DNA from: Kribbella sp. ALI-6-A
GTDB taxonomy: Bacteria; Actinomycetota; Actinomycetes; Propionibacteriales; Kribbellaceae
NCBI RefSeq assembly: GCF_001984195.1
Contig: NZ_MTQN01000011.1
Coordinates: 248,001-312,000, forward strand
Reading direction: 5' to 3'
DNA length: 64,000 nucleotides
In this document: piece after piece, positions 1,284-50,656 of the stretch
Layout of the letters: each line of letters opens with the position of its first letter
Numbering within the stretch: position 1 is the first letter of the stretch
Translations under genes and position numbers: made by a program
The notes under the pieces: model-generated
Databases searched by the model: none
What the model was told of the DNA's origin: nothing
What the model saw: the letters and a program-made list of their open reading frames with translations, nothing else

Positions 1284-1450
1284 TAGGGTGGGTCTCCCGG
1301 TTCCGCGCCGTAGCGAGCAGGTGCCCGGTGCGGTGGCTCGGTGTGCGGGGGACGAGGTTGCGATGCGAAGCATCGTGGCCTTGGCACCCGTGCAGCGAGA
1401 TGCCGTGCCGGGTGCCGCGCAGTAGGCGGGGAATCGGGAGACCCGCCCTA
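1284..1450. repeat. Dispersed hairpin repeat, copy 1 (167 bp)
   Basis: An element with 21-base terminal inverted repeats (1284-1304 and 1430-1450), both ending in TAG/CTA: 19 Watson-Crick pairs plus two G-T pairs. The interior shares long stretches with copy 2 at 49785-49886 (for example GCCGTAGCGAGCAGGTG and CGCGCAGTAGGCGG) but carries about 65 extra bases, including a small hairpin CGATGC-GAA-GCATCG. The right tip CTA (1448-1450) is the stop codon of the AraC gene. The left tip overlaps the SD of the first PL6 gene. It may be a transcription terminator, a REP-like structure or a non-autonomous mobile element. Confidence 0.8.
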
Positions 1451-2299
1451 GCTGTTGGGGCGGTACAGCTTTCGGTATTCGCTCGGGGTGACCGAGCTGA
1501 CCTGGCGGAAGACCTTCGAGAAGTACGACTGGTCCATACCGACGGCCGCGGCGATCTCCTCCATCGGCCGGGACGTCGAGGCGAGCTCGCGCTGGGCCCA
1601 CTCGATCCGGGCCCGCTTGATGTACTGCTTGGGCGACAGCCCGAACTCCGCCCGGAAGTACCGGATGAAGCTGGGCTGGTCCTGACCGAACTGCGCCGCC
1701 AGCTCCTCCACGGTCAGCGAATTGCCGAGGTTCGCCTGGATGTACTCGACGACGTCGGATTCGCTCGTCTGCTGCGGGGACAGCTGGACCGTCCCGGGCG
1801 GCGCGCTGTCGAGGTAGTGGGCGAACAACGCGGTCAGCGCCGACCGCAGCCGCAGCGGGGTGGCCAGACCGGGCGGGTCCCGATCGGCCGCGCCGACCTG
1901 CTCGAACAGCGCTCCCGCCTCCTCGGGCGACTTGCTGCGGACGACGTACGGCAGGGTCAGCACCTCGCCGATGTCGCGGTCGCCGATCAAGGCGGAGAAG
2001 TGCAGCCAGTGCTTGCGATAGGTGTTGTCGCTGACTGTCTCGTACGAGATCGGCACCTCGGCCGGCAGGTAGCACAGGTCGCCGGGCTGCGGGTCGAGCA
2101 CCTGGTCCCCGACGACGAGTCGGCCTTCGCCCTCGAGGATCAAGTAGAGGCGCGAGAACGGGTCGGGCTGCAGCGGGCGGGCCCACTCTCGGTGGACCTT
2201 GGTGATCCGGGCGGCGACGACGAGGTCGAGCCGGAGCCGGTCCAGGTGAGTGCGAATCAGCTCGTCCTGCCGGGTGAGGGCGGTGCGCGGCGCGTTCAC
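1448..2299 (-). CDS. AraC-family transcriptional regulator
   Basis: A sugar-operon regulator of 283 residues, usual for the family. The N-terminal half is a cupin-type ligand-binding domain (residues about 25-110, with GEGRLVVGDQ and LDPQPGDLCYLPA). The C-terminal 100 residues hold two helix-turn-helix motifs, ending in the typical signature around MDQSYFSKVFRQ and TPSEYRK. The GTG start overlaps the upstream PL6 stop as GTGA, so it is translated with the lyase operon. Its TAG stop is supplied by the hairpin repeat downstream. By context it probably controls the lyase/fucosidase/ABC operon in response to a released sugar; the ligand is unknown. Confidence 0.9.
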   Translation of the reverse strand: MNAPRTALTRQDELIRTHLDRLRLDLVVAARITKVHREWARPLQPDPFSRLYLILEGEGRLVVGDQVLDPQPGDLCYLPAEVPISYETVSDNTYRKHWLHFSALIGDRDIGEVLTLPYVVRSKSPEEAGALFEQVGAADRDPPGLATPLRLRSALTALFAHYLDSAPPGTVQLSPQQTSESDVVEYIQANLGNSLTVEELAAQFGQDQPSFIRYFRAEFGLSPKQYIKRARIEWAQRELASTSRPMEEIAAAVGMDQSYFSKVFRQVSSVTPSEYRKLYRPNS

Positions 2300-3747
2300 G
2301 AGCTGAACGGCCCGACCTCAGCCGCGGTCAGCGGTCCCCACGCGGGCCGGCGCCGGGAGTATTCGTCCGCGCCGACGTCCGCCCGTCCGTGCCGCTGGTC
2401 GCCGTCGAGATCGACCTCGACCCCCGGGTACCAGCGGGTGGCCGCGTTGATCGCCGGGCTGCGCTCCGTCAGCCGCCGTACGCCGTCCGGTCCCGGCGCC
2501 AGGCGCGGATCGATCCGCGTGTACGCCGTACCGGGTGCGTTGCCGTCGGCGGCCGCGCCCCAGGTGAGGTTGCCGCCCCACTCGATGCCGTCCGGATACG
2601 GCATGTCGATCAACTGTCCTGTGTCGCCCACCAGGAGATTGTCGGTGATCGCGCAACCCAGCGGCGGCAGCGTGCGGTGACTTTCGCCGACGATGCCCGC
2701 GCCGCAGTCGAGAATCGTGTTCAAACCGATCCGGACCCCGTCGGGCGCGTCGTTGCCGCGGCGGGACTCCGCGGACTCGCCCGGGAAGTGGTCGCGGATC
2801 GAGCCGCTGCCGAGCACGATCCCGGCGCCGTCGATCCGTTCGAGGTAGTTGTTCACGATCAGGTGGTCGTTGCCGTAGATCCGGATCCCGTTGCCTCCGG
2901 CCAGCAGATAGTTGCCCTCGACCCGATTGCCGTTGCCGTGCCGCAGCACGATGCCGCCGACGCTGTCGCGAATCGTGTTGCGCCGGATCACGTTGCCCGA
3001 CGACTTGACCGAGATCGCCTCGGGGTCACCGTGGGCGCGCTCGAACAGGTTCAGTTCGATCACCGCGCCGGCCTTCGACAGGGCCCGCGGGCTGACCCCG
3101 AGTCGGATCGGCTCACCGCCGTTGCTGCCGGTGAAGCTGTGGTCGCGGAAGTGGTTGCGCGCGACGTACACGCCCTGGGCCATCGCGCTGGTGCCCGCGC
3201 CCTCGATGCCGAGGTAGACGCCGAGCGTGGACTTGCCGTGCCAGACGTTCCGCACGATCGTGCTGTGGTCGGCCCGGACCATCACCCAGTGCAGACCCTC
3301 GAGGACGGCCAGCTGGAAGTCGTTGTTGCTGAGCCTGATCCGCCGGCAGTCCGGTGGCAGGTCGAGCGTCGTGCTCTGCTGGAAGACGAACCCGCTGATG
3401 GTCAGGTCGGAGGAACTGCTCAGGACGAAGCTCTGCTCGCCGGTGAGCGTCACGCCCCCGCACGACTCGGCGCGCACGGTGATCGGGCGGCGGCGGCTTC
3501 CTCGCTTGCCGGTGATCGCGATCGGTTCCGTGACGTTGTAGGTCCCGTCGGCCAGGGCGATGACACTGCCGGGCACCGCACGGGCAATTGCCTCGCGAAG
3601 CTCTTCGAGCGAGTGAACCAGGTCCCCGTGAGGGCCAAGGGAGGCAGGCGGGGCGCCGTGGGCAGGCGTGAGACCGAGGGCGCCGCTGCCGGCCATCCCG
3701 GCTGCGGTGGCGGTGGCGGTGGCGGTCAGGAAGGTTCTTCGATTCAT
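2296..3747 (-). CDS. Secreted polysaccharide lyase family 6 (PL6)
   Basis: A complete PL6 lyase of 483 residues, exported and acting on extracellular polysaccharide. The signal MNRRTFLTA is of twin-arginine type and is followed by an alternating Thr-Ala stretch, encoded by a GGCGGT hexanucleotide repeat near 3704-3726, and then an alanine-rich cleavage region. Beta-helix repeats fill residues 60-400. Catalytic candidates are Glu243 in GDPEAIS, Lys248 in SVKS and Arg269 in LRHGN, almost the same numbers as Glu243, Lys250 and Arg271 of chondroitinase B. The start is the ATG 13 bases after the fucosidase stop. It is a paralogue of the partial lyase at 1-1273. Alginate, dermatan or another uronan are all possible substrates. 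Confidence 0.87.
   Translation of the reverse strand: MNRRTFLTATATATAAGMAGSGALGLTPAHGAPPASLGPHGDLVHSLEELREAIARAVPGSVIALADGTYNVTEPIAITGKRGSRRRPITVRAESCGGVTLTGEQSFVLSSSSDLTISGFVFQQSTTLDLPPDCRRIRLSNNDFQLAVLEGLHWVMVRADHSTIVRNVWHGKSTLGVYLGIEGAGTSAMAQGVYVARNHFRDHSFTGSNGGEPIRLGVSPRALSKAGAVIELNLFERAHGDPEAISVKSSGNVIRRNTIRDSVGGIVLRHGNGNRVEGNYLLAGGNGIRIYGNDHLIVNNYLERIDGAGIVLGSGSIRDHFPGESAESRRGNDAPDGVRIGLNTILDCGAGIVGESHRTLPPLGCAITDNLLVGDTGQLIDMPYPDGIEWGGNLTWGAAADGNAPGTAYTRIDPRLAPGPDGVRRLTERSPAINAATRWYPGVEVDLDGDQRHGRADVGADEYSRRRPAWGPLTAAEVGPFSS
3704..3726. repeat. Hexanucleotide repeat (GGCGGT)n in lyase signal peptide
   Basis: Nearly four tandem copies of GGCGGT lie inside the PL6 signal sequence and encode alternating Thr-Ala after the twin-arginine motif. 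Gain or loss of a unit would change signal length by two residues without breaking the frame. Confidence 0.6.
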
Positions 3748-47026: not shown

Positions 47027-48018
47027 ACGCGCTGGAACTGACCGACCTCGTCATGCACTTCGGACCGGTCCGGGCCGTCGACGGGGTGTCCCTGCGAATC
47101 CGCAAGGGCACGGTGGTCGCACTGGTCGGTGAGAGCGGCTCCGGCAAGTCCACGGTCGGCCGCTGCGTCGTCCGGCTGCTCGAACCGACCGGCGGCACAG
47201 TCCGACTCGCTGATGCCGACATCACTCACCTCAACCGCCGCCAGCTGCGCAAGCACCGCCGGAACGTGTCGATCGTGTTCCAGGACCCGGCCGGCTCGCT
47301 GGACCCGCGGCTGTCGGTCGGCGACATCGTCAGCGAACCACTCCGGCTCATGCGGCAGCGTGACACCGCCGGACCGGTCGCTGACTCGCTACGCCGGGTC
47401 GGGCTCCGGCCGGAGGTCGCCCAGCGCTCACCGCACGAGCTGTCGGGTGGTCAGCGCCAGCGGGTCAGCATCGCCCGCGCACTGATCTCCAAGCCGAGTC
47501 TGCTGGTCGCCGACGAGCCGACCAGTGCGCTCGATGTGTCCGTCCAGGCGTCGGTGCTCAACCTGCTGGCGGATCTGCAGCGGGACCTCGGGTTCGCATG
47601 CCTGTTCATCACCCACGATCTGTCGGCCGTCGAGTACCTGGCCGACGAGGTCGCCGTGATGTACCTCGGTCAGCTGGTCGAGCAGGGGCCGCGCGAGCGG
47701 ATCTTCGGCGTACCAGCTCATCCGTACACGCAGGCGCTGCTGTCCGCCGCCCCGGTGCCGGACCCGACGACCCAGCGGGCGCGGCGGCCCGTCCTGCTCG
47801 GCGATGACCTGCCCTCACCGATCGACCCGCCGTCCGGCTGCCGGTTCCACACCCGGTGCCCGGTCGCGGTGGACAGATGCCGGACGGTCGTCCCGGAGTC
47901 GCGGGTGATCGGCGAGGGTGGACACCGGGTCGCGTGCCACCTGGTGAACGACGACGGCACCGGACCGGACGTACGGCGTACGCAGGACACCACCACTGAC
48001 ACAGGAGCTGCCCGATGA
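47023..48018 (+). CDS. Peptide ABC transporter ATPase (DppF type)
   Basis: 331 residues. Walker A GESGSGKSTVGR, signature LSGGQRQRVS, Walker B LLVADEPTSALDVS; C-terminal CRFHTRCPVAVDRC Cys cluster as in its partner. ATG start overlapping the DppD-type stop; its own stop overlaps the gamma-glutamyltransferase start. Confidence 0.95.
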   Translation: MNALELTDLVMHFGPVRAVDGVSLRIRKGTVVALVGESGSGKSTVGRCVVRLLEPTGGTVRLADADITHLNRRQLRKHRRNVSIVFQDPAGSLDPRLSVGDIVSEPLRLMRQRDTAGPVADSLRRVGLRPEVAQRSPHELSGGQRQRVSIARALISKPSLLVADEPTSALDVSVQASVLNLLADLQRDLGFACLFITHDLSAVEYLADEVAVMYLGQLVEQGPRERIFGVPAHPYTQALLSAAPVPDPTTQRARRPVLLGDDLPSPIDPPSGCRFHTRCPVAVDRCRTVVPESRVIGEGGHRVACHLVNDDGTGPDVRRTQDTTTDTGAAR

Positions 48019-49787
48019 CCTTCACCACCCGGCCCACGCTGCGCGGTACGTTCGGGATGGTCTCGTCCACGCACTGGCTCGCGTCGCAGTCGGCGATGCG
48101 GATCCTCGAGCTCGGCGGCAACGCGTTCGACGCCGCCGCCTGCGCGGGGTTCGTGCTGCACGTGGTCGAGCCGCACCTCAACGGCCCGGGTGGAGAGGTC
48201 CCGGCGATCGTCGCGACCGCCGACGACCCGACGCCGCGAGTACTCGCCGGGCAGGGCGTCGCGCCGGCCGGAGCGACCATCGAGCACTACCGTTCGCTCG
48301 GGCTCTCGCTGGTCCCCGGATCCGGTCCGCTGGCGGCCACGGTCCCCGGTGCTGTCGACGCGTGGCTGCTGTTGCTCCGCGACCACGGCACGCTGCCGCT
48401 GCGGACTGTGCTCGAGCCGGCCATCGACTACGCGCGCAACGGGCACCCGGTCGTCGCGCGGGTCGGTGACACCGTCGAAACCGTGCGGGAGCTGTTCACC
48501 GAGCACTGGCCGACCTCTGCCGCGCTCTGGCTGGCCAACGGCCGTCCGCCCGCGCCCAACGAGCTGGTGAAGAACCCGGCGTACGCCGACACGCTGGAGC
48601 GACTCGTCACCTCCGGCGAGGAAGCCGGTACGGACCTGGTGGCCCAGATCGAGCGGGCGCGGCTGGCGTGGCGTGAAGGGTTCGTCGCGGAGGCCGTCGA
48701 CGAGTTCTCGAAGCTGCCGCACCGGGACTCCAGCGGTGAGGACCACGCCGGGCTGATCACCGGGGCCGACATGGCTGCCTTCACCGCGACCTGGGAGGAC
48801 GCGGCGACGCTGGACTGGCACGGGCACACCGTGGCGAAGACCGGGCCGTGGGGCCAGGGTCCTGCGCTGCTGCAGTCGCTGGCGGTGCTGGCCGAGCTGG
48901 GCGATCCCAGTGACCTCGACCTGACCAGTGCGGATGCGGTGCACACGACAGTCGAGGTGATGAAGCTGTCGTACGCCGACCGCGAGGCCTGGTACGGCGA
49001 CGGCGCCGACGTACCGCTCAAGACGCTGCTCTCCCCCACGTACGCCGCCGCCCGGGCCGCGCTGGTCGGTCCGGACGCGTCGCTGGAGCTGCGGCCCGGC
49101 ATGCCCGACGGCCGGAAGCCGTTGCTTCCTACGATGACCACCGGCGACGTCACCGTCGACGCGACAGTCGGTGAGCCGACGGTGGCGCCGGACGGCGGGA
49201 CGCGCGGCGACACCTGTCACGTCGACGTGGTGGACCGCTGGGGCAACGTCATTTCCGCGACGCCGAGCGGTGGCTGGCTGCAGTCGTCGCCGGTGATCCC
49301 GTCGCTCGGGTTCCCGCTCGGCAGCCGGGCGCAGATGTTCTGGCTGGAGGAAGGGCTGGCGTCGTCACTGGCTCCGGGCAAGCGGCCGCGGACCACGTTG
49401 ACGCCGACGCTGGTACTGCGCGACGGCGTACCGGTGCTGGCTTGTGGATCTCCTGGTGGCGATCAGCAGGACCAGTGGCAGTTGCTGTTCCTGCTGCGCC
49501 ATCTGGCCGGTGGGCAGGAGTTGCAGGTGGCGATCGATGCACCGGCCTGGCACACCACCGGCTTCCCGTCGTCGTTCTATCCGCGCGCGACCGAGCCGGG
49601 CGGCCTGGTGCTGGAGACCCGGCTCGGCACGGCGGTTCGGGACGAACTGATCCGCCGGGGACACGTGGTCACCGAGTCGGACGCATGGAGCCTCGGTCGG
49701 CTGTGCGCGGTCGGACGCGAGCCGGACGGCGTACTGTCGGCCGGTGCGAACCCGCGCGGCATGCAGGGGTACGCCGTCGGTCGTTAG
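48015..49787 (+). CDS. Gamma-glutamyltransferase family protein
   Basis: N-terminal nucleophile hydrolase that cleaves or transfers gamma-glutamyl groups; 590 residues, close to E. coli Ggt (580). N-terminal SQSAMRILELGGNAFDAAAC is the family opening. Thr400 in RGDTCHVDVVD is the probable autoprocessing site and nucleophile, giving a small subunit of about 190 residues. No signal peptide is visible, so it should act inside the cell, after import. The ATG overlaps the ATPase gene (ATGA), and its TAG stop is the tip of the hairpin repeat. Some relatives are cephalosporin acylases or act on other amides. Confidence 0.9.
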   Translation: MTFTTRPTLRGTFGMVSSTHWLASQSAMRILELGGNAFDAAACAGFVLHVVEPHLNGPGGEVPAIVATADDPTPRVLAGQGVAPAGATIEHYRSLGLSLVPGSGPLAATVPGAVDAWLLLLRDHGTLPLRTVLEPAIDYARNGHPVVARVGDTVETVRELFTEHWPTSAALWLANGRPPAPNELVKNPAYADTLERLVTSGEEAGTDLVAQIERARLAWREGFVAEAVDEFSKLPHRDSSGEDHAGLITGADMAAFTATWEDAATLDWHGHTVAKTGPWGQGPALLQSLAVLAELGDPSDLDLTSADAVHTTVEVMKLSYADREAWYGDGADVPLKTLLSPTYAAARAALVGPDASLELRPGMPDGRKPLLPTMTTGDVTVDATVGEPTVAPDGGTRGDTCHVDVVDRWGNVISATPSGGWLQSSPVIPSLGFPLGSRAQMFWLEEGLASSLAPGKRPRTTLTPTLVLRDGVPVLACGSPGGDQQDQWQLLFLLRHLAGGQELQVAIDAPAWHTTGFPSSFYPRATEPGGLVLETRLGTAVRDELIRRGHVVTESDAWSLGRLCAVGREPDGVLSAGANPRGMQGYAVGR

Positions 49788-49886
49788 GGCACGTCTCCCA
49801 ATTCCGCGCCGTAGCGAGCAGGTGCTCGGTGCGAGGTGCCGTGCCGGGTGCCGCGCAGTAGGCGGGGAATTGGGAGACGTGCCCTA
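49785..49886. repeat. Dispersed hairpin repeat, copy 2 (102 bp)
   Basis: Perfect 21-bp terminal inverted repeats (49785-49805 and 49866-49886), beginning TAGGGCACGT and ending ACGTGCCCTA. The interior is shared with copy 1 at 1284-1450 but lacks its extra segment. The left tip TAG is the stop codon of the gamma-glutamyltransferase gene; the right tip CTA is the stop codon of the convergent GntR gene. It fills the whole intergenic space and would fold as a strong bidirectional terminator. Confidence 0.85.
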
Positions 49887-50549
49887 AGGCAGAGCTGCCG
49901 CGGCTGCGGCCTCGACATGGGCTTCGGCCGCGGCCACTGCGGCTTCGGCGTCGCCTGCAGCGATGGCGTCGACCAGGCGGATGTGTTCCTCCCAGGAGTG
50001 CGGCGCACGCTGTGCCGCACCGACCCGGAACACCCAGTGCACGTGGTGGTACATGGCAGACGACAGCGAAGCCAGCCAGCGGTTGCCACTGATGTCGATC
50101 ACTGCGACGTGCAGTGCGCTGTTCAGCTCGGCGACCCGCGCCAGATCCTGGGCCTCGGTCGCCTTGCTGGCCTCTGCCAGCAGTGCACGCAGCCTGGCCA
50201 CGTCGTCCTCGGTGGCCCGCTCGGCGGCCAGCCCGGCGGCCAGGGTCTCCAGCTGCTTGCGGACGGCGAACAGATCGCGGATCGCCGTCTCGTCCAGCGT
50301 CGCCACGACCGCGCCACGGCGCGGGAGGATCTCCACGAACCCCTCGCTCTCCACCACCCGCAGCGCCTCGCGGACCGGGTTGCGCGACACCCCGAAGTCG
50401 TCGGCCAGCCGGTTCTCGGTCAGCCGCTCGCCCTGCGCGTAGTCCCCGTCGACGATCCGGCGCCGCAGCTCGCTCAGCACCTGCTCCCTGAGCGCGACGT
50501 GGTCCGCACCGATCGTGCGCACCTGCTCGCCCCCGTACCGCTGGTCCAC
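49884..50549 (-). CDS. GntR-family regulator, FCD subgroup
   Basis: 221 residues. N-terminal winged helix (REQVLSELRRRIVDGDYAQG, GVSRNPVREALRVVESEGFV) and a helical FCD ligand domain with the Asp/His pattern near SALHVAVIDISGN and EEHIRLVDAIAAGDAEAA. The GTG at 50549 has GGGGAG upstream; an ATG at 50591 would add 14 Arg/Gly-rich residues. It is convergent with the peptide importer operon and probably controls it through the TGTATACA site (inference). Its stop codon is the tip of the hairpin repeat. Confidence 0.9.
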   Translation of the reverse strand: MDQRYGGEQVRTIGADHVALREQVLSELRRRIVDGDYAQGERLTENRLADDFGVSRNPVREALRVVESEGFVEILPRRGAVVATLDETAIRDLFAVRKQLETLAAGLAAERATEDDVARLRALLAEASKATEAQDLARVAELNSALHVAVIDISGNRWLASLSSAMYHHVHWVFRVGAAQRAPHSWEEHIRLVDAIAAGDAEAAVAAAEAHVEAAAAAALP

Positions 50550-50656
50550 CCCGGACTCCCCTCTGCTTCGGCCCGTGCCGTTGCGAGGCACCGTACCGGA
50601 CCGCGGGGCGCAGAACCCGTTTGCCGCCGGGTGGTGCGGCTGGATACGTTGACGCC

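Follow-up and report, generated by a model that had tools for sequence, protein, structure and literature searches.

What kind of element leaves two copies of one hairpin in a single stretch of a Kribbella chromosome, with arms that differ in sequence between the copies and pair within each? The window, the whole 64,000-nucleotide stretch of DNA analyzed here, comes from Kribbella sp. ALI-6-A, and an earlier note made from sequence alone had drawn attention to this pair.

Two hairpins in the window

The earlier note had claimed that the 21-base arms of the two copies differ at positions 7, 8, and 16 and that each change is matched on the opposite arm. This held exactly, as between copies 1 and 2 the pairs are G-C / A-T at position 7, G-C / C-G at position 8, and G-C / A-T at position 16, with both sides changed each time. 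Arm positions 6 and 17 are G-T pairs in copy 1 and C-G and A-T in copy 2. The claim that copy 1 is longer by about 65 inner bases containing an inner hairpin also held (65 bases), but the bounds given, 1284-1450 and 49785-49886, did not, since their outermost bases are flanking DNA. The corrected features are as follows.

1285..1449, + strand: hairpin element copy 1, full-length, 165 bp (match to the core covariance model R1, E 8.3e-26; fold)
1285..1305, + strand: copy 1 outer stem, 5' arm (arm pairing and covariation)
1310..1319, + strand: copy 1 conserved internal-loop strand GTAGCGAGCA (nearly invariant among 123 cores)
1417..1426, + strand: copy 1 conserved internal-loop partner GCGCAGTAGG (nearly invariant)
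1429..1449, + strand: copy 1 outer stem, 3' arm (arm pairing and covariation)
49786..49885, + strand: hairpin element copy 2, internally deleted, 100 bp (fold, arm pairing)
49786..49806, + strand: copy 2 5' arm (arm pairing)
49865..49885, + strand: copy 2 3' arm (arm pairing)

Both copies fold beyond chance. Copy 1 folds at -138.5 kcal/mol versus -80.8 +/- 4.2 in dinucleotide shuffles (z -13.7), and copy 2 at -79.9 kcal/mol versus -44.0 +/- 3.9 (z -9.3). The two strands of copy 2 are unequal, the strand opposite the folding strand reaching only -66.7 kcal/mol.

A repeat family of Kribbella

The earlier note had further proposed a repeat family with covarying arms, to be checked with a covariance model and refuted if no further copies existed or if arms elsewhere failed to pair. 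The check was run and the proposal held, neither refuting outcome being what was found: more copies, with arms that pair, are present in the same genome and across the genus. BLAST together with a covariance model of the core (R1) identified about 14 copies in the ALI-6-A genome, including nine full-length elements and trimmed forms of 100, 78, and ~55 nt. All 18 related genus genomes in the model scan matched, with 2 to 56 matches each, some of them the same hairpin read on its reverse strand, and nearly all sampled genus genomes still matched at a stricter cut-off. Copies are few in G001, G007, and G059 and numerous in G014, G073, and G011. Every one of the 80 loci drawn from the named genome collection is a Kribbella record. 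The earlier note did not recognize the family, and Rfam 15 gave no match at gathering score, with E<=1 returning only generic miRNA hairpin models far below their cut-offs, and the literature searched contained nothing relevant on Kribbella repeats.

The full-length element, ~165 bp, comprises a 21-bp outer stem (AGG...CCT), an internal loop, and a long inner stem with fixed G-U pairs, followed by the hairpin tip. The stem boundary is sharp, the first base being paired in 88/103 and the position one base further out in 42/103. The arms change freely in sequence, both sides together, whereas the internal loop and the inner stem are conserved. The internal loop is nearly invariant, whereas the 5' arms show 98 distinct sequences among 103 arm pairs; across 173 distinct arm pairs, 94% of positions are Watson-Crick despite widely different arm sequences. 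In a 45-copy alignment, 97% of cells pair and 32 pairs have both-sided changes, with 288 such cells compared to 72 in shuffles and 25-73 in slid controls. Both-sided arm changes are also common among copies with near-identical cores, where double transversions (2127 cells) match double transitions (1789 cells), although copy pairs in this count are not independent. This hints at hairpin-templated correction acting besides selection.

Outside the genus, the internal loop (GTNGCGAGC / GCGCAGNAG) is retained in divergent relatives, both in a second family of the order (G027, L068) and in a different family of the class (G229, L360). In L068 and L360, the internal-loop strand is GTAGCGAGC / GTCGCGAGC and its partner is GCGCAGTAGG / GCGCAGCAG. 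An element with similar outer arms (L358) is present in G512, and L022, with wholly different arms, belongs to a GCAGTCGCGAGC / GCGCAGCACGC subfamily together with L067 and L355.

Orientation relative to replication

In single-contig genomes, the strand carrying the element flips at dnaA. With the terminus assumed to lie half a genome away from dnaA, the element points toward the origin in 90/91 cases in six complete genomes (p 7e-26) and in 83/85 cases in five further complete genomes, for a total of 173/176 in 11 complete genomes (p about 2e-47). Of the three exceptions, two (G002:2770237 and G013:647877) are orthologous insertions, L136/L120, from the same ancestral event. Pointing toward the origin, the folding strand serves as template for the leading strand and matches the nascent lagging strand in sequence. 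Gene direction cannot explain this orientation, because neighboring genes show only a ~60:40 bias and run with the element in only ~40% of cases.

One strand is kept folded

The 173 distinct arm pairs contain 3265 Watson-Crick, 134 G-T, 11 A-C, and 50 other pairings. An A-C on the folding strand would be a G-T on its complement, and the G-T excess therefore marks the folding strand as the one kept folded. The same asymmetry is seen among copies at orthologous sites (29 G-T versus 0 A-C) and in every neighbor-gene context, including loci where both neighbors are antisense (23 G-T versus 1 A-C), so pairing is preserved in place and independently of read-through from neighbors. A caveat is that some orthologous-site pairs may be independent insertions, their core identity being at random level. 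The folding strand is also more stable than its complement in 181/181 copies, at -76 versus -60 kcal/mol (DNA parameters). The folding strand is thus kept folded by a pairing that tolerates G-T but not A-C, and the earlier suggestion of selection on structure is supported by this strand-specific asymmetry, orthologous copies included.

Mutational bias is disfavored as the source of the G-T excess. C-G and T-A pairs interconvert freely, so both C>T and G>A must occur, but only the T-G intermediate is seen. Deamination of C on an exposed lagging template would yield the opposite asymmetry.

Insertion site and mobility

With the element taken out, the flanks of both window copies and of further copies match empty sites in relatives. 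The empty site of copy 1 (L185/L186) reads CTCCT|AGTTG, and those of copy 2 are in relatives L199, L201, and L202. The cleanest cases, L145 versus L182 (97% flank identity) and L177 versus L305 (95%), are exact at T|A. CT|AG or CT|AA is the preferred target (27/107); where the target is T|A, insertion with a TA duplication is indistinguishable from insertion without one. The element meets three open reading frames in the window.

1448..2299, - strand: ORF whose stop TAG is formed T|AG across the copy 1 right end; we take it to be an AraC-like regulator
48015..49787, + strand: ORF whose stop (T|AG) overlaps the copy 2 left end; taken to be gamma-glutamyltransferase-like
49884..50591, - strand: ORF whose stop overlaps the copy 2 right end; taken to be a GntR-like regulator

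More widely, among genes that end at the element, the stop codon overlaps its left end in 27/42 upstream sense genes and its right end in 29/64 downstream antisense genes. Insertion is precise at T|A and often within stops, and the AGG...CCT ends rebuild a stop codon on either side. We infer that TA is likely to be rare outside stop codons in such GC-rich genomes; given this rarity and the TAG-rebuilding ends, target choice and tolerance may both contribute.

Copies that are 96-98% identical lie at different loci of one genome, and in a burst of copies in genome G014, arms and core are common to unrelated loci. Because recently spread copies share arms at unrelated loci, the arms travel with the element. 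The earlier note had also raised arm exchange during movement. Movement itself is supported, both by the empty sites and by the occurrence of near-identical copies at unrelated loci; arm exchange is not shown, as recently spread copies keep their own arms. The most unusual features are ones absent from that note: orientation to replication, insertion at stop codons, and the bias to a single strand.

The idea, taken from L022, that arms are copied from the target site was rejected as a general rule on the basis of the G014 burst. As separate observations, L130:1481-1808 contains two elements head to tail with a shared boundary, and in the window tandem paralogous genes (101-1084 and 2539-3525, ~73% DNA identity) lie on both sides of the AraC-like gene, copy 1 being placed between the 101-1084 paralogue and that gene.

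Search for a mobilizing enzyme

The Y1_Tnp transposase (PF01797; REP/IS200) was found in 0/21 genus genomes, with positive controls found, and its absence rules out REP/RAYT and IS200/IS605 as the resident agent. A carrier or parent IS with matching ends was not found in a TIR scan of the ALI-6-A genome, arm-pattern scans of six genomes gave no long-range arm pairs, and neither a carrier or parent IS nor a mobilizing gene was found in 1.6 Mb of family loci, in a search that was not exhaustive. Solitary arm matches were considered as IS ends and rejected, as they proved to be mini hairpins or half elements. The integron attC core motifs RYYYAAC/GTTRRRY were not seen at element ends by eye.

Possible explanations

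The near-absolute fork orientation and the strand-specific fold make fork-coupled insertion, with the folded strand being mobile or recognized, the best explanation. We favor, by a small margin (probability roughly 0.55), a new family of small non-coding and presumably non-autonomous mobile DNA hairpin, inserted in a fork-coupled manner and with one strand kept folded by selection. The mobile form would be the folded strand (single-stranded DNA, or RNA/cDNA), recognized via the internal loop and paired stem. It would enter the chromosome at the replication fork, most simply by being joined to the nascent lagging strand, whose sequence it shares. The enzyme, unidentified, would act in trans. 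Several points weigh against this reading. Neither a carrier element nor a mobilizing gene was found in the ALI-6-A genome, six genomes, or 1.6 Mb of loci, and in known single-strand transposons the strand that moves lies in the lagging template (PMC5371812), the opposite of the hairpin. In-place preservation of pairing is unexpected for passive insertion and suggests an added function or hairpin-templated repair, and some orthologous-site pairs may be independent insertions. A bolder version, in our view rather less likely than not, is a new class of mobile element, in which a hairpin without coding capacity spreads as a folded single strand and is inserted at T|A by joining to the nascent lagging strand. 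Its outer stem would serve by structure alone, its conserved internal loop would be read by an unknown enzyme, either of the host or acting in trans, and the hairpin would stay folded in place because the folded strand has a further role in replication.

The strongest rival, which remains possible, is a conventional MITE moved by a DDE transposase (IS630 or IS5/IS427 type) with TA or YTAR duplication, its orientation set by beta-clamp contact. The T|A target (CT|AG or CT|AA in 27/107), inverted ends, and precise empty sites fit, and several IS families are reported with replication-orientation bias through the beta clamp (PMC5371812). Against it, no IS with matching ends turned up in the ALI-6-A genome, the six-genome arm scans, or the 1.6 Mb of loci, near-symmetric ends make 98% orientation hard to reach, and one-strand G-T-tolerant pairing in orthologous copies and free arm sequence are left unexplained. 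Alternatively, selection could act on RNA, the element being a structured RNA gene or a 3' UTR element (terminator, RNase III, or stability hairpin) that spread by transposition. This would account for the G-U tolerance, the conserved internal loop, and the stop-codon position. We consider it unlikely, since the folding strand is antisense to both neighbors in 39/109 loci and has a sense gene upstream of it in just 42, the G-T/A-C asymmetry is equally strong in antisense context, RNA function does not require replication orientation, and Rfam gives nothing near gathering score. Least credible, and in our judgment very unlikely, is random insertion orientation followed by loss of, or harm from, copies folding in the lagging template, with arms matched by quasi-palindrome correction. 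The greater stability of the folding strand (-76 versus -60 kcal/mol), the internally deleted and mini forms, and double transversions as frequent as double transitions speak for it; yet the other strand also folds very strongly, making 173:3 hard to reach by deletion alone, and templated correction alone does not predict G-T without A-C.

Comparison with known systems

REP/REPIN sequences are short hairpins outside genes that carry a GTAG tag and G-T pairs (PMC3733652) and frequently lie downstream of coding regions, and IS200/IS605 elements have single-strand mobility coupled to the fork (PMC5371812, PMC6006769). The Kribbella hairpin resembles REP/REPIN-RAYT (TnpA-REP) and IS200/IS605 in its GTAG, G-T pairs, and inferred fork-linked mobility. 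In contrast to REP/RAYT, it is a 165-bp single hairpin with a 21-bp free-sequence stem and with GTAG inside the hairpin; unlike in IS200/IS605, its folding strand is the leading and not the lagging template in 173/176; and neither system's Y1_Tnp gene is present in the 21 Kribbella genomes. Orientation that depends on the fork has precedents in IS200/IS605, Tn7-TnsE, and clamp-binding IS transposases (PMC5371812).

The 21-bp inverted arms (AGG..CCT) and TA-type target recall MITEs of DDE transposons, but the Kribbella terminal sequence is not conserved and no parent IS was found. MITE-type repeats such as NEMIS/Correia, ERIC, and RUP are non-coding and intergenic, with inverted ends, TA-type insertion, and deletion derivatives. 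The Kribbella hairpin shares this design, but its ends covary instead of being conserved, it pairs in a strand-specific manner and is oriented to replication, and no parent IS was found for it. The 147-bp bcr1 of the Bacillus cereus group (PMC2267715) is similar in size (~150 bp), restriction to one species group, structure, mobility, and lack of a known enzyme. Its host is unrelated, bcr1 has TTTAT duplications while Kribbella insertion is at T|A, and bcr1 is not known to have a replication orientation. Triplex repeats (BoxC/TMECO) of E. coli are also intergenic conserved hairpin repeats, able to stall polymerase; intrastrand triplex repeats were rejected as the identity of the element, BoxC/TMECO having no reported strand bias (PMC4666352).

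The analysis found neither a known repeat family nor a mobilizing enzyme that would account for the Kribbella hairpin. Insertion oriented by replication has been described for transposons equipped with an enzyme of their own; in Kribbella, a hairpin without coding capacity combines near-absolute orientation, strand-specific pairing preserved at fixed sites, and drifting matched arms, in genomes with no Y1 transposase found. Two testable questions follow: which enzyme moves the hairpin, and why one DNA strand stays folded. The arms are a natural record of matched-pair change in hairpins.

Short, expanded, and divergent forms

Trimmed copies of 100, 78, 55, and ~30 nt exist, all with both outer ends kept; the ~30-nt mini hairpins are in genomes G018, G011, and G012. 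At one orthologous site, a full element (L134) in one genome corresponds to a mini hairpin (L280) in another, which supports deletion within the hairpin, and we infer that the short forms are hairpin deletion products. Many minis of 30-36 nt in these three genomes (L208-L226), such as AGGTCCTGTCTGGTGATCCAGACAGGACCT, lie at T|A sites and have two recurrent breakpoint types, for which recurrent deletion or mobility of their own are each possible.

L357 (G043) belongs to a divergent subfamily with arms AGTGTCCGGCGTTTGCTGTTCCTTG, in which the orientation rule is obeyed (19/19 in G043). L048, in the ALI-6-A genome (C7:1046413-1046572), is a larger hairpin of -155 kcal/mol on one strand and -109 on the other, with an inner stem similar to the family and without the GTAG loop; it may be a distant member or a separate family. 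An expanded member, L219, extends to 313 bp with repeated GGTCGGTGCGGCA units in its inner stem.
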